64,000 bases of DNA from Petrosia ficiformis (Eukaryota; Porifera; Demospongiae; Haplosclerida; Petrosiidae), in assembly GCA_947044365.1 (NCBI GenBank), contig OX345641.1, positions 4,682,460-4,746,459 on the forward strand, read 5' to 3'. This document shows positions 2,571-45,950 of this stretch, piece after piece. Below the pieces are notes generated by a model, which made no database searches, was not told the DNA's origin, and was given only the letters and a program-made list of their open reading frames with translations. Every line of letters begins with the position of its first letter. Position 1 is the first letter of the stretch. The translations under genes were made by a program, and so were the position numbers.

Positions 2571-3200
2571 TGTGTCACTTGCGCGAGTATGCGTTGTATA
2601 CGTAGTTAAGGAAGTTGCGTCATTCCCGGGGGCTCGGTCAATTAATGGGTGTGGCACGTAAAAGAATGCGCGCTCGAGCTCTAGAAACCAGCAGAAAGAA
2701 AGCCAAGTAGCTTACGTAGAAACTGGAACTAATAGCTAGCTATTCTGCCTGAAATATATTCCTAAAGTTCTCCAATGTCCTTTGAAAGGTCAGGAAAGTA
2801 GATAATCAAAATAATAACTATAATAAGCTGTTGTCTTTCATGCTTGATAAAGTCAGCCATGATTACTGAATGCTGGACACCACAAAGCAGTCATAGGTAT
2901 ACTTTTATCTACACCCACATTTGTAAAACAATCATTTCATAGTAAAATTCTCCTTGGTAGCCACCTTTCTCTCTCTAAAACAGTTAATAAACCACTGTTT
3001 TGCTCATGCTGTACAGGAAATATATAGCACTCGGGGTGGGGGCTCGAATCAAGGCCTTGATTATAGTTATTATTTTGATTATCTACTTTCCTGACCTTTC
3101 AAAGGACCTTGGAGAACTTTAGGAATATATTTCAGGCAGAATAGCTAGCTATTAGTTCCAGTTTCTACGTATCCCATAGGGATGTTTTTTCTCAATATAT
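2487..3200 (+). mobile_element. foldback element family F, copy 1, with 112-bp inverted arms
   Basis: Starts with the small palindrome TGGCCCGTAGGGCCA followed by ATCCCTATGATTGCTT, then a (TA)n run (about 2537-2568), and ends with ATAGGGATG near a T-rich tail. Related copies are at 17572-18021, 19402-19781 and (inverted) 24628-24830, with a remnant near 62630-62680. Unique to this copy, 2713-2824 recurs in inverted orientation at 3060-3171, giving 112-bp nearly identical arms around a 235-bp loop. No protein is encoded; it is probably a non-autonomous DNA transposon. Confidence 0.75.
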
Positions 3201-3400: not shown

Positions 3401-4465
3401 GTTGTAATATTACAACTTCTTGTTCAGAGAGGAAGTACCACACCTACTTAATAGATTTCACTGCAATCACTGGGTGTTGGTGTTACCACGCCCCAAATTA
3501 CCAGTTAGACGGTATACCAATGTGGTGGCGACATGTTGGCATTCTATTGTTTAAAACGGCCATGCTTTATTAGATACGGTCTAGCGGTGCTTTGATTCAA
3601 GTGTCCACCCTTTGATGTTTCTTTGAAGTTAGCTTAGGGTACTTAAAAAGGAGATTAGAATGGGATATTGATGTATGTGTGATGTATAGACTTGGTTCCT
3701 AGCTGGTTTTAGTAAGAGAGAAAGAGATGTTGGGAAATAAGTGACAAATACCGTTCGCTTGCAGACTTGAGTGGAGGCTGTGCTTGCAGTAATTGGTAAG
3801 CAAGGTTGATGTGACTGTTAGATTGCTCCAGTGGTTCAAGAAAGTTGCAAATTGCCTGTATTCAGTTGCAACGAAGGTTTTGATTTTAATAAAATGATGA
3901 GCAACACATCGCAATCAGTATATTATATCCCTGGTAGGTGTGGTTGGAATAATAATTATCATTATTAAAATTAATTCATTCAAGGTGGTACTAGGGAGTG
4001 GGCGGATGCGACTCCAATCAGTTTCAAAATAGAATATTATATAATATGACTCTAACCTGGTGTAGTAGCAACCTTCATATCTTCTAATCACCTTTATAGG
4101 GTCCTGGAATTGATAAAACATATATAAAATGTCCATTTTTGCAATCTCAATAAGTACAAAACCGAGAAAGCCACGCCCACCAATCATGGCGTGCACCAAG
4201 TACAATGCATTTACAGAAAACAAATAGAGCCGTTTTCTGGAAATTCATTTTACTTTTATAGTTACAAGAGGCTGAAGAAAGCTGAATTCTGTAGCTTTTC
4301 ACTGAAACCATAAAATCTACCTTTCTAGGCACTATCAAAATCCGCTCTTTCTCAGAGAGCAACTACAGTTACCCGCCATTGTTTATTAATATCATGTGAT
4401 TGTAGCATGACATAGACACACCCTCGTTGTACATCGTGCAACCAGCTGATTTCACGTGGTTGTTC
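3401..4465. other. no gene recognised
   Basis: Minus-strand open frames of 71-102 codons overlap here, but none shows a known domain, conserved motif or coherent splice pattern. CACGTG E-box cores occur near 4454. Otherwise I see nothing definable. Confidence 0.4.
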
Positions 4466-4745
4466 ATGGCTGAAAAAGGAAATTCAATTGTGATATCTGA
4501 CTCTGAGAATGAATTAAGGTTCATGATTTAAAGTTTGTTTCTCTATTATTTTATTTCAGTTTTATAGAGTGAATATGGTCGTGACAGTCTCCCCACTCCA
4601 TGATGGGCTTCAGGACAGTGGCGCAAGCAATGACTCTGATGATGCAGTGTCACCTCCCAAACATCGGTCAGTGAACAAGCCAAGACAAAATAAATCTGGG
4701 AATAAAAGTTATTATTATTGTTGTTGTTATGATGAGTTATTTTAA
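4466..4745 (+). CDS. candidate small two-exon gene with SUMO-interaction-like motif
   Basis: A candidate only. Exon 1 (4466-4518) opens with ATG and encodes a 17-residue acidic start containing IVISDSENE, which resembles a SUMO-interacting motif (hydrophobic core followed by Ser/Asp/Glu). A donor GTTCATG follows. An acceptor TTTTATAG at 4567 joins in phase to exon 2 (4568-4745), giving 76 residues in all, rich in Ser/Asp and then basic, ending at TAA. The 49-bp intron is very short. It could equally be the first two exons of a longer protein whose later exons I cannot see. No family is recognised. A CACGTG core lies just upstream. Confidence 0.3.
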
Positions 4746-7745: not shown

Positions 7746-8974
7746 CACTTTTCCCGCTAATGCACAAATCCAAACGTGGTTTCCTTTGCACTGGAGAGTA
7801 CGCTATGCTATCCCCCGTGCCGGCCTGTGTGGGCCCAGGTTTAGTTACACCACTGATGTTCCCAGACATACTAAAACAAAATTAAATGTAGTTAACCTTC
7901 CCATTCTTACTGGTCAGCAGACTCATATCCAGGCACTTCTATCAGATGAATATAAATGGGTGGTTTCAATTAGCATTTCATCCACTAGTCCTAAACCCAT
8001 TTCAGTAAACATTGTAACCTTTAAATGACAGATCTATTGAGTGATGTCCAAGATTGCCATCAAAGACTTTGATACTGATTGAACCCTAACCACAAAGGAA
8101 CCATAACATGACCCTAAATGAACCACATAATGATATTCAGGAGATTTTGATGGACATAAATAATATTAGTTGCACAAAGAAGGATTGGAAACCTACAACT
8201 ACATAATTAAATGTTTATTGTGGTTATTGATACATGTAATATGATAAATTATATAGGATCATAAAAAAATAGGACTTCAAATAATTGAATTAAGAACTTG
8301 ATTATAATTGGCACTAGTCATATGCAACACATGTCACATATATGGGACGTTTCACCCCTACGTGGTTCGGAGTGTGTTCCTAGCATTACAAAGCCCTCCA
8401 AATGCTTGTAATTGGTGCCAGGCACAAGCCCATGAAAATGGCTTTAAAACGTTGCTGGTTTTTTGGCCGTCCTTAGGCCTAAATAACGACTATGGGGGGA
8501 ATTTTAAAGGGGGTTGGAAGGGGGTGCAGCCCCCTCACTGCCCACGCAAATTGTGGTTTCAGTGACCCCACCCACATGCTCTGGTGAGTACCTGAGGCAT
8601 TTCCCTTGCTGTAAAACCTGAAATCGTGGGTGTAGCTGGTACCAACATGCAGTGGGGTGATTTTGTTTGCCCCAGTTCCAGTCAAAAGAGGGAGAGCACT
8701 GCATTTCATTTAATCCTACAAAGCGCTTGGGAACTTTCAAGTCCCGGTAAGCAAATTGGTAGAAGTAGTACTCCATGTCGGAAAAGGAGCCAAGTTTGGG
8801 GTAGAGAAAGTGAACGGTGGCCAAAATATATGCAATAGAGTCACCAGTGTTGGAAATGGGAAGAAATTTGAAAAACAAGTTCAGTCCTCTAAGGGTTAAT
8901 AATTATAATCAATATTTTCATTGATCAATATACAGTTGAGTGTTTAGTTTAACAGAGGATGTTTTCCTAAAGTT
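7746..8974. other. no gene recognised; probably decayed repeat
   Basis: The 8300-8880 part is locally GC-richer, with gggggtggaag and gcagccccct runs, and carries overlapping open frames on both strands (longest 124 codons, minus strand). The frames show no domain I know and no splice logic. It may be an old transposon fragment. Confidence 0.4.
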
Positions 8975-9540
8975 GGCTAATTATAATTTACACTATTTCA
9001 TGTAACTGTAAATAAGTTATTTTAACAATATTATTTTTGCAGTGATCATATAATTATTTATTAAATACAAGTAAACAAATATACGGTATTTTGTTTTCTT
9101 ATAGTTTTCACTGTATTGATCTATTTGAAAGCAATGGATAACGTAAGTGTAAACTGTGTAATAAAATTGTATACTTTCTGACATTAATTGTGACCCCAAT
9201 AGTCCCATTTTATCAATTATTATTTCTGAAAATTATAGTTTCCAGCTAAGTACAGTTTAACTAGTGGAGTGTTGCTAGACATTTCAGTCTATATAGCTGT
9301 ATAGCTGTATAGGATTATCGGTATGTGTGTTATAGGGATACCCATTGGCTTGTCTTGTCAGAGAGTACCGTATAGCAGGTTATTTTCATAAGTGAAACTT
9401 TTTGTTAATATAGTATACATGCTTTAGAATAAATTTTCGTTGTCTTTTATTTTCGTCTTGTCATAATTGCAATCAATCAACATGGCCACGCCCATCACAT
9501 GAGACCTATAATTTTATCACTAGAGTTAGTAATGGATTAG

Positions 9541-9850
9541 TTTAGCTGGTGCGTGAGAGGGTACCATGTGTACAAAAAGATATGGGAAGCAAAGTTAAAC
9601 GAGATATTGGATCGTGTGAGAGAAACCAACAACACAACTGATAGGTATGCAGTAGCTGTAAAAAAAAGCAGAAATAATAGTTGGTCACATTCCAAGAAAG
9701 ATGTCAAGGATTTGCTCGTTGTTTTTGAAACGTCAAAGCTCCAGGATTTCATGTAAAGTGACAGAAACACGGCAGCCCTCCTCAGACCTTCCCCAAGGAA
9801 GTCTGGAGATCCCATGTTTAAATACATTTTATGGAAGGAAAGAAGACATT
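9541..9850 (+). pseudogene. broken HIRAN-like domain frame inside the transposon
   Basis: Two overlapping plus-strand frames (9553-9756 and 9701-9850) together resemble one domain that starts RGYHVYK and contains REx3NxxDRYAVAV, followed in the other frame by CSLFL and SSDLPQGSLEIPC. The pattern (conserved DxYAVAV and a DLPQGGLEIPC-like end) recalls HIRAN-like modules that recur in invertebrate repeats. This is memory of the pattern, not a search result. One frameshift and an upstream stop break it. It lies opposite in strand to the transposase. Confidence 0.45.
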
Positions 9851-9886
9851 GCTAAAGTTATGACTATAGAACTGAAATTTAGATAC

Positions 9887-9943
<57 letters not shown>

Positions 9944-10019
9944 GTATAATTATAATTATATTCTATAATAATTATTAGTAATTTAAAAATAATTTATGAT
10001 AATGTTATCTAATTATTAT

Positions 10020-11417
10020 TTATGGTACAGATATACCAGCTCCTCTAAATCCATTTTGAATAATATCCGAATTTTCTTTGATATAATTGTGCATCTCAAC
10101 CAACCACTTAGCTCCTAATGGTTTTAGAACACTCATCCTTAAGTCAACTGGTGGTGGTGGATCTCCTCCCTCAGCCAAGTAAATTGCCACTTGGTTGGCA
10201 TGCAAATCATTTGTCATGAACTCGTTAACTGATTTGTTAACGCTGACATCAAGGGGTTGCAGTCAGTCTGTACAGTTTGGGAGAACATGTACATCCTCAA
10301 TGTTGTTTTCCTGTAGTAACTGACTTATACCTGGTGTTAACTGACCCTTGAATACATCGAAGATAACTAATGCTGGCTGAGATTTATCCATACCAAGATT
10401 TTGCCTCACCTTTTCTACTTAAGGAATAATAAATTTCTCAACATATGCTTTAGATGTTGTCTCGTTCGCCCAATGTTTTGGGGTGTAGGTATGATTCAGG
10501 AAAATCATACTTTGGTGGTAGACAGGCTTTGGTTTTGCCCCCATAAATAACTTGAGGTGGCAAAAATTCACCAGACAAAGTACAGTCTAATGCGGTAATT
10601 ATCTGCCTTTTGTCTTCTATCCCAACAATGCTCACTCTTTTTGCTCCTCGTTCTTTCATTGTCCAGTTAGAAGCTGGAACAATTTTAATTCCCTTGTGAT
10701 CCCAGTTAATTATTAACTGTGGAGGGATATTTTCAAAATTAACAGTCATTCTTATCTTCTAAATATTGTGCCTTGAGGTTGTCGAAGTTTTTAGCTGTTA
10801 CCTTCACCTTTGTATTACCTCGGCGTTTAACAAATCTAATTCTGTATAATAGAGATTTGCCCAATCAACTGTTAATAAACCTTCATTCTCTTTTAAGATA
10901 TCTGGGTTGCTCTTTCTAAGAACTCTCATTGCAGTGGATATAGCAATCTCAGTGTTTATTACTCACCCAACCTCATTAATATTCCTCATGATCAACTGTA
11001 CCTCAGCATCAATCTTCTCCCCCAACAAAAGAGGCCTTCCTTGTTTTTTTATGAGGTAAGGAGATCACATCACTTTCTTCAGAACGTCTTTTTTTCCTTT
11101 CTAAATTCCTTTCTGTATACAACTATCCAATCTCGAATTGTAGTAACTTCTACCTCCTTCTCCAACTGCTTAGAAAAGTGTGTACTTGCTGACTTCACAC
11201 CATGCAAGCATACATACTTTGCTACAATAGCCTTTTGCTCGCGAATGAATTTCATATAACTACCTTTCTTCTTATCCTTCTCCTTTTGAATTTCTTTGTC
11301 CACTGAAGATATAATTGATGATGGAACTAGACCACTTAAATTATTCTGTGGGTCCACAAAAGAAAGTGATTTAAAATAGCAATGCAGAGACATTGCCAGC
11401 TGGATCAGTGGTTTCAA
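10020..11417 (-). pseudogene. pogo/Tigger-family transposase remnant
   Basis: Reading the minus strand, 11417-11079 holds an N-terminal helix-turn-helix-like part (EQKAIVAKYVCLHGVKSA...FSKQL). 10749-10450 holds the first DDE aspartate block (INWDHKG). About 10440-10220 holds the second (PALVIFDVFKGQ) and the LQPLDVSVNK block typical of DDE_1 (pogo/Tigger/jerky). At least one in-frame TGA (10265-10263), a stop near 10420 and frame changes between blocks make it non-functional. Confidence 0.85.
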
Positions 11418-11783
11418 TAATAATTAATTAATTATTAACTCAAAGATTAACATTCGTAGACTACAATTTCGTCCAACTAAGTAAACATACGGGAAAAAAT
11501 GAAATTTAGACCCAATCGAAAATAACCCGCTAAACGGTATATATATATAATGACTGAGTACTCATTATTTAGGGATGGCCCAAGAAAAAAATGGTCAGCA
11601 ATACATTTCAGTTGCAAATGATGTATCAAATTATCTGCTAATTTCTGTGGAGAAATCTATGTAGCGACCTTTTCATATTTTTTCAGGTTTTTATGACTAG
11701 CAACACCTAAATTGCCCAAAATTGTCATTACATTAGAGAACTATAAAATAGTAGAAAACTGCACGACTATAGCTATACATACA

Positions 11784-12384
11784 TACCGTATAGCTGGTAT
11801 TTTTAACGTGGAATTTATTTTCGCTTAAATTCGCGGTCAATTAAGAAACGCGAAAATAACATTGTGTGAAACTTTTTATCCAGTGAATATTTAGAACAGT
11901 TGACATTTCATACCGTATATATTTCCACCACGTGTGTGCAGTGTGAAAAACATCGTTGTCTACTGATGTCTATCCTTCAATATCTAAAGCCTAAACCAGC
12001 AGCCATAGAATCAGCAAACAGCCTGGTTCGAGAAGTCCAATACCAAAAGAAAACCATGGCTAGAGGCCACTATCATAAACTTTCCCCAGCTCTACGAGCG
12101 AATATAGGCGTAGCGGTCTTTTGAGTTAGTAGTCTCCCTCTTACATTCCAGTTCTTCATTGATTACTGCCTTCCAAAAGTCCTTATAAACATGGTAGCCA
12201 CGAACACAACAATTTCTCTCAACAATTACAGCACCAGACATTTATAACTGTATCACGTGGTGAAATTTAATTTTCGCGTGCGTCATCACGTCGCGAATAT
12301 TTGCTCCGCGAAATACATAATCTATTAGAACGTTTTCTCTAATCGCGAATTTTTATGTCCACGAAATAAACCAGCTATACGGTA
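11784..12384. mobile_element. non-autonomous pogo-like element, 601 bp
   Basis: The ends TACCGTATAGCTGGT and ACCAGCTATACGGTA are exact inverted repeats with TA at the outside, related to the ends of 9366-11539. The interior keeps a plus-strand frame ending MARGHYHKLSPALRANIG, which resembles the start of a pogo helix-turn-helix, then stops. It sits exactly at the left border of the intron-like tandem array, so its right flank is array sequence and its left flank is repeat A. Confidence 0.82.
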
Positions 12385-12385
12385 T

Positions 12386-15300
12386 ATTAGTTCAATCAAA
12401 CTGTACTTTATTTCATGACTATTCATCTTATTCTTATTAATTACATACTATCTTGTTTACTCCTCACATGCGCTTCTGAATTTCATAGCTGGTGAGTGTA
12501 ATCAATATGTTTTTTATTTCATGACTATTCATCTTATTCTTATTAATTACATACTATCCTGTTTACTACTCTCTCACACTTCAATTGAATATCGTAGTTT
12601 GTGAGTTTAATCAAACTATACTTTATTTCATAACTATTCATTTCATACTTATTAATTACATACTATCTTGTTTACTCCTCACATGAACATCTGAATTTCA
12701 TAGGATGTGAGTTTAATCAAACTATACTTTATTTCATGACTATTCATTTTATTCTTATCAATTACATACTATCTTGTTTACTCCTCACATGCGCTTCTGA
12801 ATTTCATAGCTGGTGAGTGTAATCAATATGTTTTTTATTTCATGACTATTCATCTTATTCTTATTAATTACATACTATTTTGTTTACTCCTCACATGCAC
12901 TTCAATTGAATCTCATAGGATGTGAGTTTAATCAAACTATAATTTATTTCATAACTATTCATTTTATTCTTATTAATTACATACTATCTTGTTTACTCCT
13001 CACATGAACATCTGAATTTCATAGGATGTGAGTTTAATCAAACTATACTTTATTTCATGACTATTCATTTTATTCTTATCAATTACATACTATCTTGTTT
13101 ACTCCTCACATGCACTTCTGAATCTCATAGGATGTGAGTTTAATCAAATTATACATTATTTCATAGCTATTCATTTTATTCTTATCAATTACATACTATT
13201 TTGTTTACTCCTCACATGCACTTCTGAATCTTATAGCTGGTGAGTATAATCAAACTGTATTTTAATCATGACTATTCATCTTATTCTTATTAATTACATA
13301 CTATCCTATTTACTACTTTCTCACACTTCAATTGAATATCGTAGTTTGTGAGTTCAATCAAACTATATTTTATTGCATAACTATTCATTTTATTCTTACT
13401 AATTACATACTATCTTGTTTACTCCTCACATTCACTTCTGAATCTCATAGGATGTGAGTTTAATCAAACTATACTTTATTTCATAACTATTCATTTTATA
13501 CTTATTAATTACATACTATCTTGTTTACTCCTCACATGCACTTCTGAATTTCATAGCTGGTGAGTATAATCAAACTGTATTTTATTTCATGACTATTCAT
13601 CTTTTTTTTATTAATTACATACTATCCTATTTACTACTCTCTCACACTTCAAATGAATATCGTAGTTTGTGAGTTTAATCAAAGTATAATTTATTGCATA
13701 ACTATTCATTTTATTCTTATTAATTGCACTTGTTTACTACTTTCTCACACTTCAATTGAATCATAGGTGGTGAGTATTATCAAACTGTGTCATAACTATA
13801 TATTCACTTTATTCTTATTCATTACATATATCATGTTTACTATACCCTTACACTTCGTTTGAATTGTAGCCGGTGAGTAATATCAAGCTATATTATATCA
13901 TAACTATTCATTAATTTTTATTCTTATTAATTACATATTATCTTGTTTACCACTCTTTCACACTTCAATTGAATCTTCCAGGTGGTGAGTTTAATCAAAC
14001 TATACTTTATTGCATAACTATTCATTTTATTCTTGTTAATTACATACTATCTTGTTTTCCACTCTCTCAGACTTCAATTGAATCTCAGCCGGTGAGTATA
14101 ATCAAACTATACTTTATTCATTTTATCCTTATTGATTACATACTATCTTGTTTACTATTCTCAATTCAATCTCACAGAAAGTGAGTATAATCAAACTGTA
14201 CTTTATCTCATAACTATTCATTTTATTCTTATTGAATATATACTACTATTCTCTCACACTTCAACTGAATCTCACAGCAGGTGAGCTCAATCTATTTCAT
14301 GACTATTCAGCTTATTCTTGTTAATTACATACTATCTTGTTTACTATTTTCAATTCAATCTCACAGAAAGTGAGTATAATCAAACTATACTTTCTTTCAT
14401 AACTATTCATTTTATTGTTATTAAATATATACTACTATTCTCTCACGCTTCAACAGCAGGTGAGTTTGATCAAACTATACTTCATTTCATAACTATTCAT
14501 TTTTTCTTATTAATTACATACTATCTTGTTTACTCCCCGTACGCTTCCCATGCATTTCTGAATCTCATAGGAGGTGAGTATAATCAAACTATACTTTATT
14601 CCATAACTATTCATTTTAATTGTATTAAATATATACTACTATTTTCTCACACTTCAACTGAATCTCACAGCAGGTGAGTTCATTCAAACTATACTTTGTT
14701 TCATAACTATTCATCTTATTTTTATTAATTATATACTATCTTGTTTACTCCTCACATGCACTTCTGAATTTCATAGCTAGTGAGTATAATCAAACTGTAT
14801 TTTATTTCAAGGCCGTTCATCTTTTTCTTATTAATTACATACTCTTCTATTTACTACTCTCTCACACTTCAATTGAATATCGTAGTTTGTGAGCTTAATC
14901 AAACTATACTTTATTGCATAACTATTCATTTTATTCTTATTAATTACTATCTTGTTTACTCCTCACATGCGCTTCCGAATCTCAAAGGATGTGAGTTTAA
15001 TCAAACTATAATTTATTTCATAACTATTCATTTTGTTCTTATTAATCACACTTGTTTACTACTCTCTCGCACTTCAATTGAATCTCATAGGATGTGAGTT
15101 TAATGACACTATAGTTTATTTCATAACTATTCATTTTATTCTATACTATCTTGTTTACTCCTCACATGAACTTCTGAATTTCATAGGAGGTGAGTTTAAT
15201 CAAACTATACTTTATTTCATGACTATTCATCTTATTCTTATTAAATACATACTATCTTGTTTACTATTCTAAATTCAATCTCACAGAAAGTGAGTATAAT

Positions 15301-17571
15301 CAAACATTACTTTATTTCATAACTATTCATTTTAAATATGTACTACTATTCTTTCACACTTCAACTGCATCTCACAGCAGGTGAATTAATTCAAATTGTA
15401 CTTTATTGCATGACTATTCATTTTATTCTTATTAAATATATACTACTATTCTCTCACACTTCAACTAAATCGCACAGCATGTGAGTTTGATCAAACTATA
15501 CTTTGTTTCATAACTATTCATCTTATTTTATTAATTACATACTATCTTGTTTACTCCTCACATGCACTTCTGAATTTCATAGCTGGTGAGTATAATCAAA
15601 CTGTTTTTTATTTCATGACTGTTCATCTTTTTCTTATTAATTACATACTATCCTATTTACTACTCTCTCACACTTCAATTGAATATCGTAGTTTGTGAGT
15701 TTAATCAAACTATACTTTATTGCATAACTATTCATTTTATTCTTATTAATTACATATATCATGCTTACTCCTCACATGCGCTTCCGATTCTCAAAGGATG
15801 TGAGTTTAATCAAACTATAATTTATTTCATAACTATTCATTTTATTCTTATTAATTACACTTGTTTACTACTCTCTCACACTTCAATTGAATCTCATAGG
15901 ATGTGAGTTTAATGAAACTATACTTTATTTCATAACTATTCATTTTATTCTATACTATCCTGTTTACTCCTCACATGAACTTCTGAATTTCATAGGATGT
16001 GAGTTTAATCAAACTATACTTTATTTCATGACTAATCATCTTATTCTTATTAATTACATACTATTCTATTTACTACTCTCTCACACTTCAATTGAATATC
16101 ATAGTTTGTGAGTTTAATCAAATTATACTTTATTGCATAACTATTCATTTTATTCTTATTAATTATATACTATCTTGTTTACTCCTCACATGCACTTTTG
16201 AATCTCAAAGGATGTGAGTTTAATCAAACTATAATTTATTTCATAACTATTCATTTTATTCTTATTAATTACACTTGTTTACTACTCTCTCACACTTCAA
16301 TTGAATCTCATAGGATGTGAGTTTAATGAAACTATACTTTATTTCATAACTATTCATTTTATTCTATACTATCTTGTTTACACCTCACATGAACTTCTGA
16401 ATTTCATAGGAGGTGAGTTTAATCAAACTATACTTTATTTCATAACTATTCATTTTATACTTATTAATTACATACTATCTTGTTTACTCCTCGCATGCAC
16501 TTCTGAATTTCATAGCTGGTCAGTATAATCAAACTGTTTTTATATCATGACTATTCATCTTTTTCTTATTAATTACATACTATCCTATTTACTACTCTCT
16601 CACACTTCAAATGAATATCGTAGTTTGTGAGTTCAATCAAACTATACTTTATTGCATAACTATTCATTTTATTCTTGTTAATTACATACTATCTTGTTTT
16701 CCACTCTCTCAGACTTCAATTGAATCTCAGCCGGTGAGTATAATCAAACTATACGTTATTCATTTTATCCTTATTAATTACATACTATCTTGTTTACTAT
16801 TCTCAATTCAATCTCACAGAAAGTGAGTATAATCAAACTGTTTTTTATATCATGACTATTCATCTTTTTCTTATTAATTACATTCTATCCTATTTACTAC
16901 TCTCTCACACTTCAATTGAATATCGTAGTTTGTGAGTTTAATCAAACTATCTATACTTTATTGCATAACTATTCATTCTATTCTTGTTAATTACATACTG
17001 TCTTGTTTTCCACTCTCTCAGACTTCAATTGAATCTCAGCCGGTGAGTATAATCAAACTATACGTTATTCATTTTATCCTTATTAATTACATACTATCTT
17101 GTTTACTATTCTCAATTCAATCTCACAGAAAGTGAGTATAATCAAACTGTTTTTTATATCATGACTATTCATCTTTTTCTTATTAATTACATACTATCCT
17201 ATTTACTACTCTCTCACACTTCAAATGAATATCGTAGTTTGTGAGTTTAATCAAACTATACTTTATTGCATAACTATTCATTTTATTCTTGTTAATTACA
17301 TACTATCTTGTTTTCCACTCTCTCAGACTTCAATGCCGGTGAGTATAATGAACTATACGTTATTCATTTTATCCTTATTGATTACATACTATCTTGTTTA
17401 CTATTCTCAAATCAATCTCACAGAAAGTGAGTGTAATCAAACTATACTTTATTTCGTAACTATTCATTTATTCTCATTAAATATATTATACTACTATTCT
17501 CTCACGCTTCAACTAAATCTCACAGCAGGTGAGTTTGATCAAACTATACTTTATTTCATAACTATTCATTT
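12386..17571 (+). repeat. tandem array of intron-like 106-bp units, part 1 (about 50 units)
   Basis: Period is near 106 bp (for example donors at 12601, 12707, 12813, 12922, 13028, 13134). Each unit starts GTGAGTNTAATCAAACT, runs through TATTCATTTTATTCTTATTA and a TTAATTACATACTATC block, then a pyrimidine-rich tract (TTTACTCCTCACATGCACTTC, or TACTCTCTCACACTTCAATT), and ends CATAG, CACAG, CTCAG or CGTAG. Exactly three bases then precede the next GTGAGT. The triplet is subfamily-specific: GAT, CTG, TTT, AAA, CAG, CCG, GTG, GAG, CAT, CTA. Four donors deviate (GTGAGC twice, GTGAAT, GTCAGT) and one unit near 17334 has lost its AG. Open frames of 60-119 codons run across two or three units but shift phase with the period, so ordinary coding is unlikely. 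Confidence 0.95.
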
Positions 17572-18021
17572 TTATGGCCCGTAGGGCCATCCCTATGATT
17601 GCTTTCCCACGGGTTCGATGTATTTATATATATATATATATATATATATAATTATGTTTGTGTCACCTACGCGAGTATGCGTTGTATACGTAGTTAAGGA
17701 AGTTACATCATTCCCGGGGGCTCGGTCAATTAATAGGCGTGGCGCGTAAAAGAACGCGCGATCAAGCTCTTGTAGCTTACGTAGAAACTGGAACTAACAG
17801 CTAGCTATTCTGCCTGACATATATTCCTAAAGTTCTACAAGGCCCTTTGAAAGGTCAGGAGAGTAGATAATCAAAATAATAACTATAATAAGCTGTTGTC
17901 TTTCATGCTTGATAGTCAGTCAGCCATGATTACTGAATGCTGGACACCACAAAGCAGTCATAGGGATACTTTTATAAATTTGTAAAGCAATCATAGGGAT
18001 GTTTTTTTCTCTCTATATACA
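17572..18021 (+). mobile_element. foldback element family F, copy 2, inside the array
   Basis: Begins TATGGCCCGTAGGGCCATCC and has the family's (TA)n run, CATTCCCGGGGGCTCGGTCA core and closing AGCAATCATAGGGATG. It interrupts an array unit between 'actattcattttt' and 'cttattaattac', so it inserted after the array formed. Confidence 0.85.
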
Positions 18022-18535
18022 CTTGTTTCTTATTAATTACATACTATCTTGTTTACTCCCCGTATGCTTCCCATGCACTTCTGAATCTCATAGGAGGTAA
18101 GTATAATCAAACTATACTTTATTTCATAACTATTCATAATAATTACATACTATCTTTGTTTACTATTCTCAATTCAATCTCACAGAAAGTGAGTATATTC
18201 AAACTATAATTTATCTCATAACTATTCATTTTATTCTTATTAATTGCACTTGTTTACCACTCTCTCGTACTTCAACTGAATGTCGTAGGTGGTGAGTTTA
18301 ATCAAACTATACTTTATTTCATAACTATTCATTTTAATCTTATTAATTACATACTATCTTGTCTACTCCCCCTCACATGCACTTCTCAATCTCATAGGTA
18401 GTAAGTATAATCATACTATTTAATCGTAACTATTTATTTGTATATATATATACATAATTTTTACTTCTCTCACACTTCAATTGAATCACATAGGAGGTTA
18501 GTATAGTCTATCTGTACAATATTTAGTTATGGTTT
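18022..18535 (+). repeat. intron-like tandem array, part 2 (about 5 units)
   Basis: Continuation of the 12386-17571 array after the inserted element. Junctions are AG-GAG-GTAAGT, AG-AAA-GTGAGT, AG-GTG-GTGAGT, AG-GTA-GTAAGT and finally AG-GAG-GTTAGT. The last units diverge in sequence and donor quality, as at the edge of an array, but keep the three-base spacing. Confidence 0.92.
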
Positions 18536-18583
18536 TTATTATACTTGTATACTTGATTTATATATCATATTTTTGATGACTGT

Positions 18584-18589
18584 AATAAA
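18584..18589 (+). terminator. candidate polyadenylation signal after the array
   Basis: AATAAA, followed 13-25 bases later by the GT-rich TCTGTTGTGTTC, is the usual arrangement of a metazoan cleavage/polyadenylation site. It lies about 80 bp past the last intron-like unit, on the strand on which the array has splice sites. AATAAA is frequent by chance in this AT-rich DNA. Confidence 0.4.
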
Positions 18590-18599
18590 CGTTTACATT

Positions 18600-20452
18600 A
18601 TCTGTTGTGTTCACTACAATTATACCATTATGCTTATTATTGTCTTTTGGAATCCTAAGCTTATAAATAGATTAGAAATGTAGAACCACAGTGTTGAAAA
18701 GAAAGAAAAAAAATTATATTAAACATAATTATTAATGATAATAATTATATAACAAATTTTAGTTTGGTAACTAGTTAAAGAAGAACAAACAGATTATGGT
18801 ATATATCAAAACAATGTCTTAATATAAAAGCAGTAATGCTGTATATATAATTATTATTTTTATATAATTATTATTATTATAGAATTATTATATAGTTTAT
18901 ATAATGAAGGACTTGTAAATTACTCATATAATTATATAATTACAATTGTATTTATATATCTTTTAACAATAATTATGGTTATAATTATTATTAGTTATTC
19001 ACTTAGCTAGGTACAATTGCTGTTTATATAATCCAATCACTATAATTATATCAAGTATAATATATGTCATAAGCTCTGTTTTTGTAGTCTGAAATATAAT
19101 TATGGTAATTTAATTGAATTAGGAAAGGCAAGAAAAAAAAGAGTTACGAAGACGAGAAGAAAAGCAAAGTGGAGAAGGTGAATTGAATAAGTAATATTCA
19201 AGTTGTTCATAAATTTATTTGATGATATAATTATAGCAATAGCCATACAATCACCATTATAAACATATCCTTTAATTACATGTATAACCACTGGGGTACA
19301 TATATATAGCCAGGATTGGCAGGTTAAAAATATGCACTGTTGTGCCATTGAGTAAAAGCAATTAATGCGAATGTGATATAGTAATAAAATGACATTGTTA
19401 ATATGGCCCATAGGGCCATTTCTATGATTGCTTTCCAACTATAATATTATAATAATAATAGTTAAAATGAAGTTGCATCATTCCCGGGGGCTCGATCAAT
19501 TAATGGGCGTGGTGCGTAATGGAACGCTCACTCTAGGTCTGCTGCAGCGGCAGGAAGAAAGAAAGAAACCTGCTATGTAGAAACTGGAACTAATAGCAAT
19601 CTATTCTACCTAAAATATATTCCTAAAGTTCTACAAGATCTTTTAAATGTAAGGAGAGTAGGTAATCAAAATAATAACTACAATAGGCTGTTGTGTTTCA
19701 GGCTTCATAAAGTCAGCCAAGATTGCTGAATGCTGACACCAAGCAATCATAGGGATACTTTTTTCTCTATGTATCTTGTTTTTAGTATGCGATATTGCAA
19801 TATTCTAATCACTATATATCAGTGATTTAATGTTACTTTATATTCCAACTGAAGTAGTTAACACTGCTTTTATTAATATCATATTCATATATATATATAT
19901 ATATATATAATTATATAAAACACAATGAATTGGATTTCATACACACTCTCTGATCCAATATACACACAAAGAGTTTTTACACTCTCCAATCAATTTTTCA
20001 ACATGCATGCAATGCCATATATAAGATAGAAGTTTTACATACCGTAGGACAGTTTTCCTAGTAACATGACCAAGCTATATAGCTGCCTTCATTTTACTCT
20101 ATGTTATATTTGCTTATTATTTTTTTCATCTTGTCTTCCAATCTATACTGATAGTTCAGTTTAAGCTTGTAAGCATAGGTATGTTGTGTATTTTAAAATG
20201 TTTCTAACCATCGCCTATGTAGGTAGAGTGAAAGGTTACTGGTTGTATGTCTCTGTAGTTCCAAATTTCAAAAGCATTTAAAGTTAACATTCCTAACATG
20301 CAGACACAAACAATCACACAAAGTAGCTTTTTTCCCATACAAGGAGGCCTACCATCATCACTAAGTACATATACATACAATATCTATGATGATACTAATA
20401 TTAATTATAATATAAAAGCTCTTGATACAATATAATGGTGTTACTCAAACAG
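18600..20452. other. AT-rich spacer with foldback copy 3; no gene seen
   Basis: Holds a foldback family F copy (19402-19781), several AT-only tracts (about 18830-18920 and 19888-19912) and a partial dispersed repeat B near 20205-20290. The 5' exon(s) of the kinase gene should lie here or upstream, but I cannot identify them. Confidence 0.5.
19402..19781 (+). mobile_element. foldback element family F, copy 3
   Basis: Starts TATGGCCCATAGGGCCATTT, carries the family core (CATTCCCGGGGGCTCGATCA and TAGAAACTGGAACTAATAGC) and ends AAGCAATCATAGGGATACTT. Here the (TA)n run is replaced by a short AT-rich stretch. Confidence 0.8.
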
Positions 20453-21561
20453 GGTTCCTCAAATTGAATCAGGAGATTCAGGACCTTCAACAGTTAGTCA
20501 CTACCAAGACAGAAGACATGAAACAAGTGCTACATACTAGCCTAAGAGCAGTTCAACAGTCTATAAATAACCAACATCAACAACAACAGCGATTTCTACA
20601 GTCCAATGAAAGACTCCAACAGCAACTTTATGAGTCCACTGAAAGGCAACAACAACAACTTCAAGAGCTCCAAGTGGCAGTTGAAGGTGTTCGACGAGAT
20701 AACCGCGAGATGACTTCTAGAAGTAAGGAAATGGAAGGTACCATTCAGCAATTGAATGAAGAGATTCGCCATCTACAAATACAATCTGATAATCCTCAAT
20801 GGGTAATTGAGAGGGAAGAAATACAAATGACACGGGAGGTAGTTGGTAGAGGAGGATGGGGTGAAGTGAAGGTTGGTGTATTCAGGGGTACTAGAGTAGC
20901 TGTAAAGTGTCTTTATGAGCTAATACTCTCTTGGTATAACCTTGAACTCTTCTCCAGAGAGATGGATATTGCCTCTCATGTACGTCATCCAAACCTCCTT
21001 CAATTCATTGGAGCCACTATAGTTGGTAATCCTATGATAGTGGCTGAGCTCATGCCCACCAGTCTTCGTAAAGAAATGGACAAGAATCCATTAACATGTC
21101 CTCAGATTTTAGGCATCGGCCAAGATGTAGCTTCAGCACTTAATTACCTTCATCTTTGGAGGCCAGAACCAATCCTACATCGTGATGTTGGCAGTCCCAA
21201 CGTCCTCTTGGAACCATCGGGTCACAATCAATGGAAAGGGAAGCTCTCCGATTATGGGTCTGCTAATATTCAACACCAAATCTCTTCTACAGTTGGTCCT
21301 GGTAATCCAGCTTATGCAGCTCCAGAGTCTCGTTATCCTAACGATCATTCTCCAGCTATGGATGTATATAGTTTTGGAGTTCTGTTGATGGAAATGGTTG
21401 TCCATCGTCCTCCTCCTCCAACCACAAGAGAAAAAGATGCTCTTATCAGGACCATACGTTGGGCTCCCATGAAAACACTCATTCGGTCCTGTACTCAGGA
21501 GGGTAAAGAACAACGTCCAACAACATCAAATGTACTACAAATACTTCGTCGTCATTTGTAA
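20453..21561 (+). CDS. coiled-coil protein kinase, TKL-like (5' end missing)
   Basis: The frame is open from about 20422 without an ATG until 20518. CTCAAACAG at 20452 looks like an acceptor, so this is probably the last exon of a longer gene. The first 120 residues are Gln/Glu-rich coiled coil. A protein kinase domain follows: glycine loop VGRGGWGEVKVG, lysine in VAVKCL, glutamate in SREMDIASHVRHPNLL, catalytic loop HRDVGSPNVLL with Asp and Asn present, DYG in place of DFG, APE in AYAAPE, and a closing EGKEQRPT. Key residues are kept, so it is likely an active Ser/Thr or dual-specificity kinase of the tyrosine-kinase-like group. The exact subfamily and substrates are unknown. It lies 1.9 kb downstream of the intron-like array on the same strand. 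Confidence 0.85.
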
Positions 21562-23014
21562 ACTGAAAGCTATGACGTATTTTTTACAGGAAGTGTGAAC
21601 ACTAGTACTATAAATAAAAGTGTTAGGTGTAGGATTATATTTTACTAATTACTTAGTACTGTTCTAAGCTGTATGCAATTATAGGTCATACCTTCAGCAA
21701 ATGAGGTAACTAATAATTATTATAATGTTTAAATTTTGTATAATGTTTTGCTGACATTGATTGTAATTACTTTTCGCCTTTTCAGTAGTCCATTTTTGTA
21801 AAAGATAAATGATTATGTAATTGCGTATTGGTACAAGTTATAATTATATCATTAGACATTTAAAATGTGAATAATGCTTACACGCATGTGTACATATAGT
21901 ACTGAACATAAGTTTGAAATTTTACTATTCCTGTGAACAAAATTATTGTATATATTCAGATTTGTGGCAAAACCAAAAGGAAACGTCTTTATAATTCATG
22001 ACAGTTGAGGAAATTCTTACATAATTATATATAATTATATTACTCCGAGTTTTGTAATAATGGATGTATATAGCATCATACAACTGAATATAACTATAAA
22101 AGTGCAATGTATGCAACTGTCATCTGTATTCTGCATAATTATAGTTGCGTACCTGATTTTCAATTGCAAAATGTATAGTACTACTAATAAGTACATGTCC
22201 ATATCTATGTATACATGTACTTACATAGTACTAATTAAAAATGCACTATTCCACTACATTATGTTTATCAATGTATAGTTTAAAATAAGAAGCCCATGAG
22301 AACACATGATAAGTGGAATACATTTATGATAGAATATCAGTCCATCTTAAACTTTCTAGTCCTTCTTGTGAGTCTTTGTAATATTGATTGTGAACTCTTG
22401 TTCATATCATTCATAGTTTCTATACAAAGAGATAAGAGAAGGATAGAAATACATGTAGACTTCTAATGAAGTTATGACATCTATGGAGATTAACTGTACA
22501 AGTCGTCTTGTAGTATTCCCTTAAATAAATAATTATTACATATGTATTAGGAATATCACACTGGAATGCTTTTAACTTTATTATGGTAATTAATTATTTA
22601 TAATGTAGGAAAAGTGCAATTAGATAATGACTAATAAAAATAGGTAATGTGTAATAATTTTGTTCAGCCATACATATCATTGGTATGGCAATTAAGCACT
22701 TCCAGCCAGTGCATTACTTACTATGTTTATCATAGTTATAAACCTTGCTAGATGCATGATATATGGGCTAGGATGTCAAACTGAACTTCTAAACAATGGA
22801 AGCCCTACATGTGACTGTTGCATATCTTAGAATTGGTATTATCTAATATTATATAGATAGAGTATATTAGTACATTAATTAAGTCCAAGTAGGAGCTATT
22901 GTCAAGTAACTCAGCCTGTGAGTTACAAAGTTTAGGGTGACAGAATCAGACGATGACTCCTTCATTAGGCGAGTTACATACTTCCTGTTTTTCATGGGTA
23001 TCAAGGTAGTGTTA
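21562..23014. other. no gene recognised
   Basis: AT-rich 3' flank of the kinase and of UQCC2 (convergent genes). An AATAAA occurs at about 21613. Nothing else is definable. Confidence 0.5.
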
Positions 23015-23727: not shown

Positions 23728-23780
23728 GTTTTGCGGGGGCGTTGCTTCAGAGTTCAAACACGTGATCGAGAAACAGAAAG
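23728..23780. promoter_or_regulatory. 53-bp bidirectional intergenic region with CACGTG E-box
   Basis: The only DNA between the UQCC2 and cathepsin B start codons. It contains the GC-rich GCGGGGGCG and, at 23759-23764, CACGTG followed by A, a TFEB/MITF-type (CLEAR-like) E-box core. Both transcription starts must be inside or overlap coding sequence, or the 5' untranslated regions are extremely short. Confidence 0.6.
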
Positions 23781-25897
23781 ATGAAGTTGTTTGTTCTTTT
23801 CTTTTATATTTCTATTGCTTTTGCGCTTCCAAGGGAATATCCAAACCATCCAGTCCTTAGCCAAAAGATAATAGATTATGTGAACTCCTTGAACACTACC
23901 TGGAAAGCTGCTAAAAGTCCACGATTTGACTATCCTGGAGTTACTAAAGAGTATGTGAAAGGTCTGTGTGGTGTCTTGAAAGGGGGTCCTCAGCTGCCAC
24001 TGGAAGATATCACTCCACTTGACGCTATTCCAGAAACATTTGATTCTCGACAGAAATGGCCAGACTGTCCGTCTATATCAGACATCAGAGACCAGGGGTC
24101 TTGTGGATCTTGTTGGGTATGTCTTTGTACATGTGGAAGCATAAATAGTACAGTGCTCTACTATGTATACATAGTGAAAGGTGTCTGTTGCATCATTATT
24201 TTCCATTGCATCCTTTATTTCTACTTTTTTCTATATAATGCAAACAGTGAGAGAAGCTTTGTTTTTTTTAATACTACATCAGTCAGTAGCTCATTTACAA
24301 CTAAGTAAAGAGTAATGCATTTGAAAAAATGAAAAACATGTAGGGATGTCAATACCAAAAAAAAGAGCACATAACGTGTAGATAGAATATAAGTGAAACG
24401 CAAAGAAGCTATACTTATGTATAATATTGTTATATGAAAGTGGTTAGTTTAATATTGTTGCTATTGTAACAAGCATCAATACATGTGTGTACAACCCTAA
24501 ATGATTTACTTCCTCATGTCTGAAATTCAACAACTTATCATACTTACTTGTTAAAGATTCTTGCATAATATTTGTACTGTTTCTCTGCTATATACAACAG
24601 TTAGTAGCAGTTTTACATCCTTTCTGAAACTTCCTGGCTGGTCTGTAGCTCAAATGTGCGTTCTTTTACGCACCACGATTAATTGAACGAGACCTCGGGA
24701 AGGATGCAACTTTCTTAACTACGTATACAATGCATAGTCGCGCAAGTGACACAAACATATATATATATATATATATATAGATTCAATCCCGTGGAAAGCA
24801 TTTATAGGGATGGCCCTATGGGCCATAAAAATGCTCAAAATTAGTTGTATTACATGTTCTAAAGTAGAAATTGAGTTATTATAAATTCATGAAAAACTTG
24901 CTTGTGTGTATTTTAGATTAATTACTAAAGAAAACATACATGTGTTTTGTTTATATGGTGATAGTAGTATATGAACACCATCTAATTATAACGAGCTGTT
25001 TCTAAACTTGTATTTAATTATCTTATTTGTTCTCATAATTATTAGGCTTTTGGTGCTGTTGAGAGTATGAGTGATCGATATTGTATTAAATATCAGGAGA
25101 ATGTTAACATCTCAGCTGAAGATTTATTATCATGTTGTAGATTATGTGGAATGGGGTAAGTAACAAGTGTATCTTTATTCTGTAGTAGTTTATTAACTCT
25201 CACCTGGATAGGCGGAGCAAAGGGTTACTGTAATCATAGTGTCTGTTTGTCAGTTCCCAAAATTCCAGCAAACCTAAGAACATTAGTACTGTTTTAAAGT
25301 TATAACGATTTTTGTAACTCACGGTTGCTGTTTCACAATTTTCAGAAGATGTCTCATAGCAAAAGAGTTTTCTGAACAACTCATCATGTTTGAAGGCTAT
25401 CGCTGTCAAATCACAGCTTGAATTCAAGTACAGTTGAAGTAGTGGCTGCTACAACATCAAGCTGTCTCTAAGCTTTCTGCCTGCCATGACTCTCAATTTC
25501 TAGCTTTACCTATTCATTTCATGCCCATGATTGAAACCACAAAACTGTTTTATAAAGGCACTGTGCTTCTTATACTAGGAATTATGTACTTCTGCTAGGA
25601 CTGCTAGTGTAAGTAACATGCATGCATATATAATTATAATCTCGGTATAATAATCATTATTACAGTCAAGTATAGTCTGCAATTAATTTCTTGTCAGTAG
25701 TCATTCGTCTTTTCTAATCACACTTGTTCTACACTGAGTGTATTCATTATCACTTGTGAATCCAAACTGATCTATTCATCTATCTACGTGTACTATTTGT
25801 ACTTGAATCCAGCTGTATACATGCACATGTATCTATCTACATGTATCTATCTACCTGTCTATCTATCTATCTATCTATCTATATGTCTATCTACCTG

Positions 25898-25929
<32 letters not shown>

Positions 25930-28900
25930 CATGTATCTATCTACCTGTCTATCTATCTATCTATCTATCTATCTACATGTATCTATCTACCTGTCTATCT
26001 ATCTATCTATCTATCTATATGTATCTAACTTGAAGTTAATCTATTTTGTCCCACCTGTTGTACATAGTAGGGTATACATATAATTTTATTTATTGGGCTC
26101 GTTCAATTAATGTGTTAAGTTTCATGATGTATATGTAGTTACACTTTTTATAAATCCAGTATTTAGAGACACTAGTGCTGTCAGCAATGATTGAGATCCT
26201 TTTTTCCTTACTGTATAAATCATGTTAAAATTTGTTAATCTTTATAGGTGTAGTGGTGGATATCCAGCAGCTGCTTGGTGAGTTGATATTATTAATCTAC
26301 AAAACTGACCTTTCTGTTGAATTATCAATGAAAATATGTGACCTAATAGGAAGACTATCCCGCAAAACAAATGCTGACCATTAATGTCTTGTCATTCTGC
26401 AATTTTGTACAGAAAGTGAAAGATATTTGGTATCTTAGAAGCTTAATAATAGTTCTTCATGGATACCAATTTCATTGACTTCCTGTACACAATGTCGGAA
26501 TAGTGAGTGATTAGATGTGAGCCTTTAATGAAAATTATTTTGTGGGAAAGTGTTCCTTTACAAAAATAAAGTCAAGTGTTTTGATTGATGTAAAAAATGC
26601 ACAATTCATTACAAAACAATTGCTTACTTTAACAGTCACCATTCAACCATTTTGAAAATTATTGGCTTTCTATACAAAATGACTGAATTAATAGCAAGCT
26701 TTGACAATTGATTATATGAAGGATTGATCCTTATAATTACAATATTATGTATATCCTCACACTGACAAGTACAGAAGATATTGAACTGATAAAAGGGTAT
26801 TACGAATGTGATCATTTATGAGAAAAATTACAATTTGTTGCATAATAAACAGTGCACATTGTAACATCCAGTAATTAGCCATTTTCCAGATATTTTGCCT
26901 CTTTGTATGGACAAAACTGGACAATTTGTCTGATAATTACCTGTGTAAGAAAAAAATAATAGCAGTAACCTGACAACAAGGTTAATTATTAGTCAAGAGC
27001 AATCATAGATTAGTAGGTAAATTCTATATCTGATAAGCCATAAATGGGTACACTGCTGGTTTTCTGGACCAAATTCACAAATTGCTTGTCAAATATTGTT
27101 TGGTCCATATGTTTCTGCTAGACACTTTCAAAACTATTTTGAGCACTGTAATAAATGGTTACTTTAATTACTATTGAGCCATTTTGTATATACTGAATAA
27201 CAATCTAATCATTGATTTTTATATATAACTATATAGGAGACATTGGACTGATAAATTATTAGATCAAGGTATTGTAACTGGAGGACAGTATCAAACTAAA
27301 AATGGATGCAGACCTTATTCAATAGCTAAATGTGATCATCATGAAGATGGTCCCTATCCAGCTTGTAGTGATATTGTATCCACTCCTCATTGTGAAAAGG
27401 AATGTCTAGATGGTTATTCCAAATCATATCATGATGATAAACATTTTGGATCACGTTCTTATAGTATTAGTAGTAAAGTTGAGGATATACAGACTGAGAT
27501 AATAACTAATGGACCAGTAGAGGGTACTTATGATGTGTATGCTGATTTTCCTACCTATCGTTCAGGTTTGGGATTAAATCTTTTGTTTATTAAATATTTA
27601 ATTTTTGTAATGCCTTGTTGATGTCACTTTGATAATTGTATGTACATATACATTGTACTATGGTGGATCAAGCACAGGGTGTGCTTTTTAAAGATATACA
27701 ATTAGTTGAGTAGCATGTGATATCACGTGAATCACAGCCTTCTAGGGGGTTTGAGGGGTCTGAGAGATTTATGATATTTAACTGCCCTGAGACTGGTTCC
27801 AGATAAAAAGAAATTTTTCCTGAGGTGAGGGATGAATGATTACAGTATCTCTACTTATGGGTTGAAATAATGGCTGACAATGACTGATTACTGATTATCA
27901 GTGGATTACTATTGTACATGTATATTATAATATATCCTAAAGATACTGTTTATCTTAAGTACCACACTGTTAGACAGTGAGGATTATCTGATAGTCAATA
28001 CCTGATAGTTTGTTTAGGAACTGATTATACACTTTATCTATAGGTGTGTATAAACATGTGTCTGGAGATTTCCTTGGAGGTCATGCTATCAAAATTCTGG
28101 GATGGGGAACTGAGAATGGAACTCCATACTGGTAAGTGTCTATATGCATTTGTTATGGTCTGTGTGTGTCTATTGTAGGGTACATACCAAGGTCATAAAT
28201 GTGTACCGAACATTAGCAGGGAGGAATTTAAATTGGTGGGGGTGTGGGGAATAACAGACGATTGCATGGAGGCAAATTAGCATGGGGTATTTTTTGCCAT
28301 GAAAACATTTAAATCTAGGTTCTCTGAGGTTGCTTCTGGTGCCTATAGCTGATGATATTTTCCAGAGGTGTGTATATTCATCACCAGTGTTCTGCCCACA
28401 CTGGTTGGGAATAACCACCACTCAGCATGATTAACCATCTCTCAGATACATGATAGTTAACCTGCAATTCTGTAGTTGTAGGCACTCCAGGTTAGTGCCC
28501 ATCTTTGAATCCGGGCTGAGGCCATCTGTGGGATGGGACGTGTTTCACTGAAAATGTGCTGTAAAGGTTTGTGATCAGAAAAGATAGTGAACTTCCGTCC
28601 AAACATAATGATGGAACCTCTTCACACCAAATACTACTGCTAGCCCTTTCTTTGTCGAACTGAGAGTAATTGTTTTCTGCTGGGGCCAGTGATCATGAAG
28701 CAAAAGCAATTGGCTTTTTCGAAGCATATGTGATAGCACTGCCCCTACTCCATATGAAGAAGCATCACAGGATAATTGTAACTTTTCAATTGGGTCATAG
28801 GGTGCTAGAACTTTCGGAGATGTTAATGATTTCTCTACATCTTGGAATGCTGTCTTTCTCTTGCTCCTCTTTCCAGTGCCATTTGGTTCCTTTCTGCAGT

Positions 28901-33782: not shown

Positions 33783-33912
33783 ATTGATAATAATTATAAT
33801 AATTATGCATATAACAGTACAGTCATCATGCATAAATTTTACTTATGAGCTGTTTATTAGATTTAATACGGTAATCATGTGAGCGCAGTCTGCCAGAATA
33901 TCCATAGGAATA
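33783..33912 (+). promoter_or_regulatory. 130-bp spacer between tandem cathepsin B genes
   Basis: Must hold both the 3' end of copy 1 and the promoter of copy 2. TCATGTGA at 33875-33882 is an MITF/TFE-type E-box variant, 31 bp before the start codon. No clear AATAAA is present; GCATAAATTT near 33830 is the nearest candidate. Confidence 0.5.
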
Positions 33913-45576: not shown

Positions 45577-45950
45577 CCTACAGAGACAAAGTCACAATTA
45601 TAAAGTAAATACACTAGTTGACATACCTTGAATATGGGGTGTGTAAGATAAACAATCTATAATATGAATCAAATAATAGGCATTTTATTCATAGCTAGGG
45701 CGGTATAATTATAAAAGTGCATATACTCATATGACTGATATAGCTGTCATTTTCCATAGTAATGACAACGGAAAGTGATCTTTTTTCTTGAGTGATTATA
45801 AGATTGGTATATAGAGATTCTTCAAAGATTATAATTGATAATGTATCAAACTAGGTCTAGTTAGAAGAAGCTGAACAATTATAAACATCCCAATACAAAT
45901 TTGACGTGTATAACATTGTGTAACCATGGCAGCACACATCTGGCTTCTGG

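Follow-up and report, generated by a model that had tools for sequence, protein, structure and literature searches.

The question raised by this locus is what a long run of short, intron-like units, set exactly three bases apart, is doing upstream of a protein kinase exon in the sponge Petrosia ficiformis. The run lies in a 64,000-nucleotide stretch that we refer to as the window (contig C6, positions 4,682,460-4,746,459), and we have compared it with the whole assembly through scans covering 191 Mb in 29 contigs. We think it probable, at roughly 0.85, that the array makes up the 5' coding region of a gene and that this region is split into exons of a single codon each. A frame that stays open between the ATG and the kinase stop, phases that match, conserved splice signals, an absence of stop codons and a recurrent association of such arrays with gene starts can all be established from the genomic sequence, and it is on these that the proposal is built.

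A search of the window for AG-NNN-GT gave 57 raw matches; those at 14810, 17697 and 17914 were judged to be chance and dropped, leaving 54 units between positions 12487 and 18496 in which exactly three bases separate acceptor from donor. The features of the array, in window coordinates, are as follows.

12489..18496, plus strand: array of 54 putative single-codon exons (first triplet CTG at 12489-12491, last triplet GAG at 18494-18496)
17327..17338, plus strand: unit without the usual acceptor, where the nearest AG leaves a 12-nucleotide (nt) in-frame exon, ACTTCAATGCCG (T S M P)
17573..18020 (approximate), plus strand: transposon-like insert within one intron, found by blastn

The donor is GTGAGT in 47 of the 54 units, GTGAGC and GTAAGT in two each, and GTGAAT, GTCAGT and GTTAGT in one each; the acceptors are TAG (34), CAG (17) and AAG (3), which makes YAG in 51 of 54. 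With a consensus acceptor and donor on their flanks, the units fall within the class of spliceosomal micro-exons (30 nt or less). The introns are 85-111 nt long, with the exception of a 565-nt intron that holds the insert, and blastn finds stretches related to the insert at 2482-2908, 3056-3171, 19459-19527, 19574-19762 and 24658-24833. The triplets are of 11 kinds (GAT 12, TTT 9, AAA 7, CTG 6, CAG 5, GAG 5, CCG 4, GTG 3, and CTA, CAT and GTA once each), and none of the 54 is a stop codon. A first-pass annotation of this DNA had described about 55 units, with GTGAGT in about 50 of them and a gap that is always three bases. The array itself and its consensus donor are borne out; the gap holds in the 54 strict units but is 12 bases, still in frame, at the one further unit, and a probable start codon 3.3 kb upstream and the genome-wide pattern described below had been missed. 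The array is a genuine tandem repeat in which higher-order units can be made out, and the recurring groups of units seen in the DNA show that arrays of this type grow through tandem duplication of 'intron plus codon'. A scan of positions 8000-22000 against Rfam at gathering thresholds returned no matches.

The gene that we propose for the window would run from a start exon through the array to the kinase exon, and its remaining parts are as follows.

9134..9142, plus strand: proposed first coding exon, ATG GAT AAC (M D N), reading ATGGATAAC followed by gtaagt, found in a scan for ATG..GTRAG; ends in phase 0
9143..12488, plus strand: first intron in the proposed gene, 3346 nt long, carrying other repeats
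about 11911-12386, in the first intron: element with short inverted ends, resembling a miniature inverted-repeat transposable element by eye
19123..19177, plus strand: 55-nt exon 3' of the array (ERQEKKELRRREEKQSGE plus one base), leading from phase 0 to phase 1
20453..21561, plus strand: exon encoding a coiled coil and a protein kinase domain (PF00069 / PF07714), with stop TAA at 21559-21561

Spliced in this order, the start exon, array, 55-nt exon and kinase exon give a single 448-codon open frame to the kinase stop, taking the acceptor at 20453, whose exact site is uncertain, as the choice that preserves the frame. The array units are symmetrical and tandem, two features of micro-exon genes (MEGs) of the Schistosoma type, but they account for only 58 of the 448 codons, whereas micro-exons in genes of that type form a large part of the coding sequence. 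The start exon was placed by comparison with a second locus, L009, in which ATGGATGTT followed by gtaagt stands before an array, a phase-0 exon with similar, charged sequence and a kinase open reading frame (ORF). Window positions 9049-9164 match L009 positions 4406-4524, which hold this L009 exon, with 72% identity over 123 columns (E 1e-9), the best match in a comparison of the upstream regions made with the low-complexity filter off in an AT-rich region. Window positions 19097-19143 likewise align with L009 8354-8404 over the matching exon start (76% over 51, E 0.001). The first intron was scanned for further 3-nt units with a GTRAG donor and contains none.

Regular spacing in the window alone would be weak evidence for splicing, because the array is a tandem repeat and its minus strand is also periodic (19 sites at a spacing, k, of 1 base, 16 at k = 5 and 14 at k = 8). 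Across 280 kb of the contig, the plus strand has 95 clustered sites at k = 3, the window array included, against 0-9 at every other k from 0 to 15, the k = 0 count coming partly from triplets that themselves end in AG; the minus strand has 0-16 over the same range of k. In the whole genome, CTAG-NNN-GTGAGT is matched 1267 times and its reversed control 191 times, while CTAG-NNNN-GTGAGT, with one base more, is matched 284 times and its control 241 times; among the 100 three-base sites listed of the 1267, 76 are clustered and 24 isolated. The spacing scan and the pattern counts together rule out a chance origin for the three-base gap. Two other arrays on the same contig have diverged from the window array or within themselves.

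C6 4,866,719-4,869,990: second array (L009), 15 strict units, intron bodies much diverged
C6 4,655,223-4,666,601: old array (L039 and L030), 48 strict units, almost no residual similarity among introns

Matches between L009 and the window array are confined to pieces no longer than about 95 bases. In the old array, pairs sampled from 32 introns have a similarity of 0.359 per base against 0.317 when shuffled, compared with 0.620 against 0.365 for the window introns, and despite these near-shuffled bodies the donor, the AG and the three-base gap are retained, along with the frame and a codon usage biased to CAA, CGA, TGT and TTT. The pattern of conservation and the diverged arrays elsewhere thus take the observation beyond what repeat inheritance would give.

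That pattern is plain in the window itself. In an alignment of the 51 introns shorter than 130 nt, pi is 0.00-0.11 in the donor, 0.00 in the AG and 0.56-0.72 in the triplet, with a mean of 0.17 and a maximum of 0.59 over 98 interior columns; the triplet positions are among the most variable columns and the splice signals among the least. The contrast is sharper in a gene on contig C3, in which 19 of the 27 units are almost the same, each repeat being about 134 nt long. Here the mean pairwise difference is 0.018 per base in the intron and 0.74, 0.75 and 0.00 at codon positions 1, 2 and 3, the third position being the base immediately before the donor (donor -1). Over seven units in four of the six paralogs of the C3 cluster, two of them near-identical, 11 of 21 micro-exon columns are variable as against 28 of 614 intron columns (p 2.5e-9), and the near-identical paralogs L034 and L036 differ from each other at 4 of 21 micro-exon bases and 2 of 614 intron bases.

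If the triplets are codons, they should be free of stops and agree in phase with their neighbours. We collected strict units (donor GT[AG]AG, a neighbour within 500 bases; both limits are our own), obtaining 207 from nine loci, with two gaps of more than 500 bases inside arrays bridged through other neighbours in the set; left out were three window units with other donors, an ATG unit at 4,660,148 that has no close neighbour and an AAG site at 4,666,784 taken to close a normal exon. The 207 triplets include no TAA, TAG or TGA, where 16.5 stops are expected from shuffling bases within position and locus and zero was never reached in 10,000 runs, the true significance being lower than this because tandem copies are not independent. 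Read in the +1 and +2 frames, successive units contain 8 and 23 stops, approximate figures in that the strict pattern misses units. The 207 triplets use 32 of the 61 sense codons. Stops are found in 0 of the 76 clustered and 3 of the 24 isolated CTAG sites listed (Fisher p 0.013). In all four gene contexts that we read (the window kinase, the L009 kinase, a Death-domain gene and the C3 gene, which encodes ROC and COR domains), the phase of the triplets relative to the following normal exon is 0, and three of the four have, 5' of the array, an ATG-bearing exon whose end is in phase 0. The units are therefore stop-free and continuous in frame with their neighbours, as protein-coding exons are. 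The first-pass annotation had proposed a string of single-codon micro-exons with variable, stop-free triplets between fixed splice signals, and had suggested comparing splice positions with unit interiors, equal divergence being the result that would count against it; the signals diverge less than the interiors, and its reading is further backed by the diverged array that keeps its signals and its 3-nt exon length.

The arrays stand at the start of more than one type of gene. In the L030 gene, the array is followed by a 28-nt exon entered in phase 0 and then by one that encodes a Death domain (PF00531; it scores above the cut-off, with E 1.1e-5). Downstream of that exon, at about 6300-8900 of L030 on the minus strand, are retrotransposon remains, with pieces of integrase- and RNase H-like ORFs recognized by eye. 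The C3 gene begins with a start exon, ATGGATGAG followed by gtaagt, and continues with a 9-nt exon, AAATATATC, 27 one-codon units, a 22-nt exon and a ROC-COR ORF; the joined chain is open over all 631 codons, and the predicted tail includes the stretch MDEKYIEEMEWMKWEE. With tandem Roc (PF08477, E 4.1e-11) and COR (PF16095, E 2.8e-15) domains its product is a ROCO protein, a membership that applies to the C3 gene, the window gene being a kinase. Several kinase paralogs (P0014, P0018, P0019 and P0020) have a hydrophobic stretch that to the eye looks like a membrane span and lies just before the coiled coil, and some of these kinases may therefore be membrane proteins.

For the ROC-COR genes the association could be followed through the genome. 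The start exon GAAGAATGGA[TG]GAG followed by GTAAGT is found exactly at seven places, and by their coordinates these lie 5' of the arrays of all six genes of the cluster at C3:11.06-11.17 Mb and of an array at C1:10.87 Mb. The ROC-COR ORF matches 83 stretches of the genome, which we merged by hand into 69 gene places by joining or dropping pieces of the same gene; one 244-bit row on C13 was excluded. A pattern specific to one tight subfamily of units, GTGAATCTACTAG-NNN-GTGAGTATAA, has 239 genome matches against 0 in the control, and the 100 that are listed contain no stop (3.6 expected); each of these is found on the strand of a ROC-COR gene and 0.45-4.9 kb 5' of it, and together they cover 16 genes. 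Among 35 array sites (about 29 arrays) that we picked by hand, leaving aside rows that resemble dispersed repeats or single sites, 33 are followed on the same strand by a ROC-COR gene at a distance of no more than 8 kb, the chance being about 0.3% per site for 15 kb. One of the two misses, at C2:6.146 Mb, has its nearest downstream ROC-COR gene just over 15 kb away; the other is an array at C1:13.10 Mb (C1:13099620-13104535, plus strand), where one-codon units CCA, CGA, CTG, TCA, ATA and GAA can be read.

We propose that the transcript of the window gene would be spliced from the 9-nt start exon through 54 phase-0 exons of 3 nt and one of 12 nt to the 55-nt exon and the exon for the coiled coil and kinase, and that the spliceosome would include each triplet through intron definition, spanning introns about 70-170 nt long. 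Given one-codon micro-exons between phase-0 introns, every unit that is duplicated, lost, skipped or included would add or remove one amino acid and keep the frame. The products would be kinase, Death-domain and ROC-COR (ROCO-type) proteins, each with a variable N-terminal tail some 30-60 residues long. Such a tail may be subject to diversifying selection (or targeted mutation) where the array is young and to purifying selection in the old array, and perhaps serves recognition, whether immune or of self and non-self. A bolder version of this proposal, in which codon-sized exons throughout the genome, dozens to a gene, would be combinatorially spliced, recombined through their matching introns and quickly rewritten at codon positions 1 and 2, so giving a large receptor-like family of ROC-COR, kinase and Death-domain proteins near-unlimited N-terminal diversity, possibly for self/non-self recognition, is one that we consider unlikely.

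Several observations weigh against the proposal of one-codon coding exons. Because GAG and CAG triplets place an AG directly before the donor, 10 of the 54 window units permit a reading in which AG joins GT and no exon is left. The window start exon is based on one homology match in AT-rich DNA, and the acceptor of the kinase exon is uncertain. The stop statistics are inflated by the dependence among tandem copies, and two of the nine loci, L034 and L036, are near-identical paralogs. The kinase paralog at 8889-9308 of L009 has a stop in its coiled-coil ORF and looks broken, or reflects an assembly error; for the L030 Death-domain gene no certain start exon was found. There are 12 further places, none assigned to an array, that match the start-exon pattern at two mismatches (6 in the reversed control), and the C1:13.10 Mb array has neither a nearby ROC-COR gene nor a recognizable gene in the 3 kb at its 3' end. 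The genome-wide gene association covers ROC-COR genes, the kinase and Death-domain links coming from the loci that we read. Lastly, no tail resembling the prediction was seen in a protein search with the kinase exon (5037 matches, 120 listed, 24 sequences read) or in one with the spliced ROC-COR N-terminus (44 matches, all N-termini read). Many of these matches begin at an inner Met, and at least one, P0121, reads the C3 intron; the database can neither support nor refute splicing, since its entries are seemingly ORFs called on unspliced DNA.

How, then, do other explanations compare? A non-coding repeat of satellite or introner-like type, one that arose from an intron and passes on its spacing and signals through tandem duplication, would account for the higher-order repeat structure of the window array, and fixed spacings are found in tandem repeats on the opposite strand too. 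We nevertheless regard it as very improbable: such a repeat would not be expected to keep donor, AG and 3-nt length once its introns have become near-shuffled, to contain no stop among 207 triplets, to be matched in phase by the exons on either side, to lie on the coding strand 5' of ROC-COR genes at all the listed subfamily sites, or to vary most in its triplets and least in its splice signals. Least probable of all, in our view, is a region of recursive or slow splicing, or a splicing decoy, in which the AG/GT sites would ratchet out a long 5' intron and the triplets would be absent from the mRNA. Paired acceptor and donor sites in a long 5' intron do resemble recursive splice sites, and the window units with GAG or CAG have the AG immediately before GT, but the other 44 of the 54 have a three-base gap and no AG before the donor, and so the window array does not belong to the class of recursive sites, which have no exon. 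Recursive splicing requires neither the gap nor the ban on stops, and the intervening bases lack stops and are hypervariable in some arrays.

Two further explanations concern how coding triplets are used and how they arise. In a version of our proposal that we think possible, if rather doubtful, the triplets are real exons that are chosen combinatorially (skipped or mutually exclusive) to give many isoforms. The junctions are in phase 0 all the way from the start exon to the 22-, 28- or 55-nt exon, and every subset of triplets would stay in frame. Pointing instead to a serial peptide is a 9-nt exon at C6:4665144, CAATTACAA, which encodes Q L Q and mirrors the separate consecutive units CAA, CTT and CAA that occur twice in the same array; this single example fits serial inclusion. 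(An earlier reading of this exon as CAACTTCAA was wrong; the letters are CAATTACAA.) It is also conceivable, though we judge it improbable, that targeted mutation acts beyond selection to rewrite codon positions 1 and 2, much like a eukaryotic diversity-generating system. Diversity in the C3 repeats is near saturation at two adjacent bases while the rest of the repeat differs by 1.8% on average, and the excess of micro-exon differences between L034 and L036 is of the same kind. However, diversifying selection together with constraint on the last base, at donor -1, would yield the same pattern, and the invariant third base points to splicing constraint as much as to a mechanism of mutation.

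Elsewhere in the window there are ORF pieces on the plus strand that by eye resemble papain-family (cathepsin B-like) protease genes (23766-24308, 27229-27621, 33883-34329 and 36559-37056) and, at 28575-30423 on the minus strand, protease and reverse transcriptase ORF pieces that look retrotransposon-like by eye. Two very long single-exon ORFs, at 41962-45591 (minus strand) and 49374-53336 (plus strand), measure 1209 and 1320 amino acids from stop to stop and are mutually similar, each with a long N-terminal half and, by eye, a multi-span membrane-like C-terminal half. A short satellite occupies 61094-61803, with 12 copies of a 59-bp unit that has an inverted repeat within it.

If RNA confirms the splicing that we propose, the arrays would represent a new way to build and diversify genes, in which the front ends of signalling proteins are assembled one amino acid per exon and exon modularity reaches the extreme at which exon and codon coincide. 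They would then allow tests of how short exons can be when the spliceosome has to join them in series by intron definition, of inter-codon introns as recombination substrates that let proteins evolve residue by residue, and of how recognition proteins could diversify in this animal. Very short exons are hard to map (PMC8042270), and gene models of these families in genomes of this sort would then be likely to be wrong at the N-terminus. A literature search, with bioRxiv and most subscription papers outside its scope, returned no description of arrays of 3-nt exons.

Parts of the arrangement nevertheless have parallels. Single micro-exons of 3 nt are spliced in mouse Ncam and Drosophila troponin T (PMC8042270); these are one-codon exons like those proposed here, but there they stand singly and here there would be tens in a row in each gene. 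The micro-exon genes of Schistosoma, mostly signal-peptide genes, devote up to 75% of their coding sequence to micro-exons, and share with the sponge arrays, as we read them, runs of symmetrical tiny exons, frame-neutral skipping and variation in the protein (PMC4015677). They differ in that the sponge units are 3 nt long, are strung together by the dozen before signalling domains and have, in some arrays, hypervariable codons. Introner-like elements are invasive, multiplying introns (PMC4457414), and the presence of many near-identical short introns is a likeness, such introns being seen in one young array. In the sponge, by contrast, the units are 'intron plus codon', are tandem inside gene families and differ in the codon between introns, and the 100 listed of the 239 subfamily sites all lie beside one gene family, where introner-like elements would be dispersed among unrelated genes.

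The exons of Dscam are long and mutually exclusive. Dscam resembles the sponge genes in having large arrays of alternative coding units, and differs in that its exons are long. Its variable exons are mentioned alongside the leucine-rich repeat (LRR)-ROCO genes of brown algae (PMC11378527), and Death-domain-bearing expansions are described, as background here, in the sponge Amphimedon (PMC8195603). The brown-algal LRR-ROCO genes themselves are the closest functional analogue. Their LRR exons are shuffled, each being 72 bp long, in phase 2 and encoding one leucine-rich repeat of 23 residues, and the repeats are under diversifying selection in what have been proposed to be immune receptors (PMC11378527). 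Like the C3 gene they belong to the ROC-COR class and carry tandem, phase-matched, repeated exons at the N-terminus; in the sponge, however, each proposed exon is 3 nt long, lies in phase 0 and would contribute one codon in place of one leucine-rich repeat.

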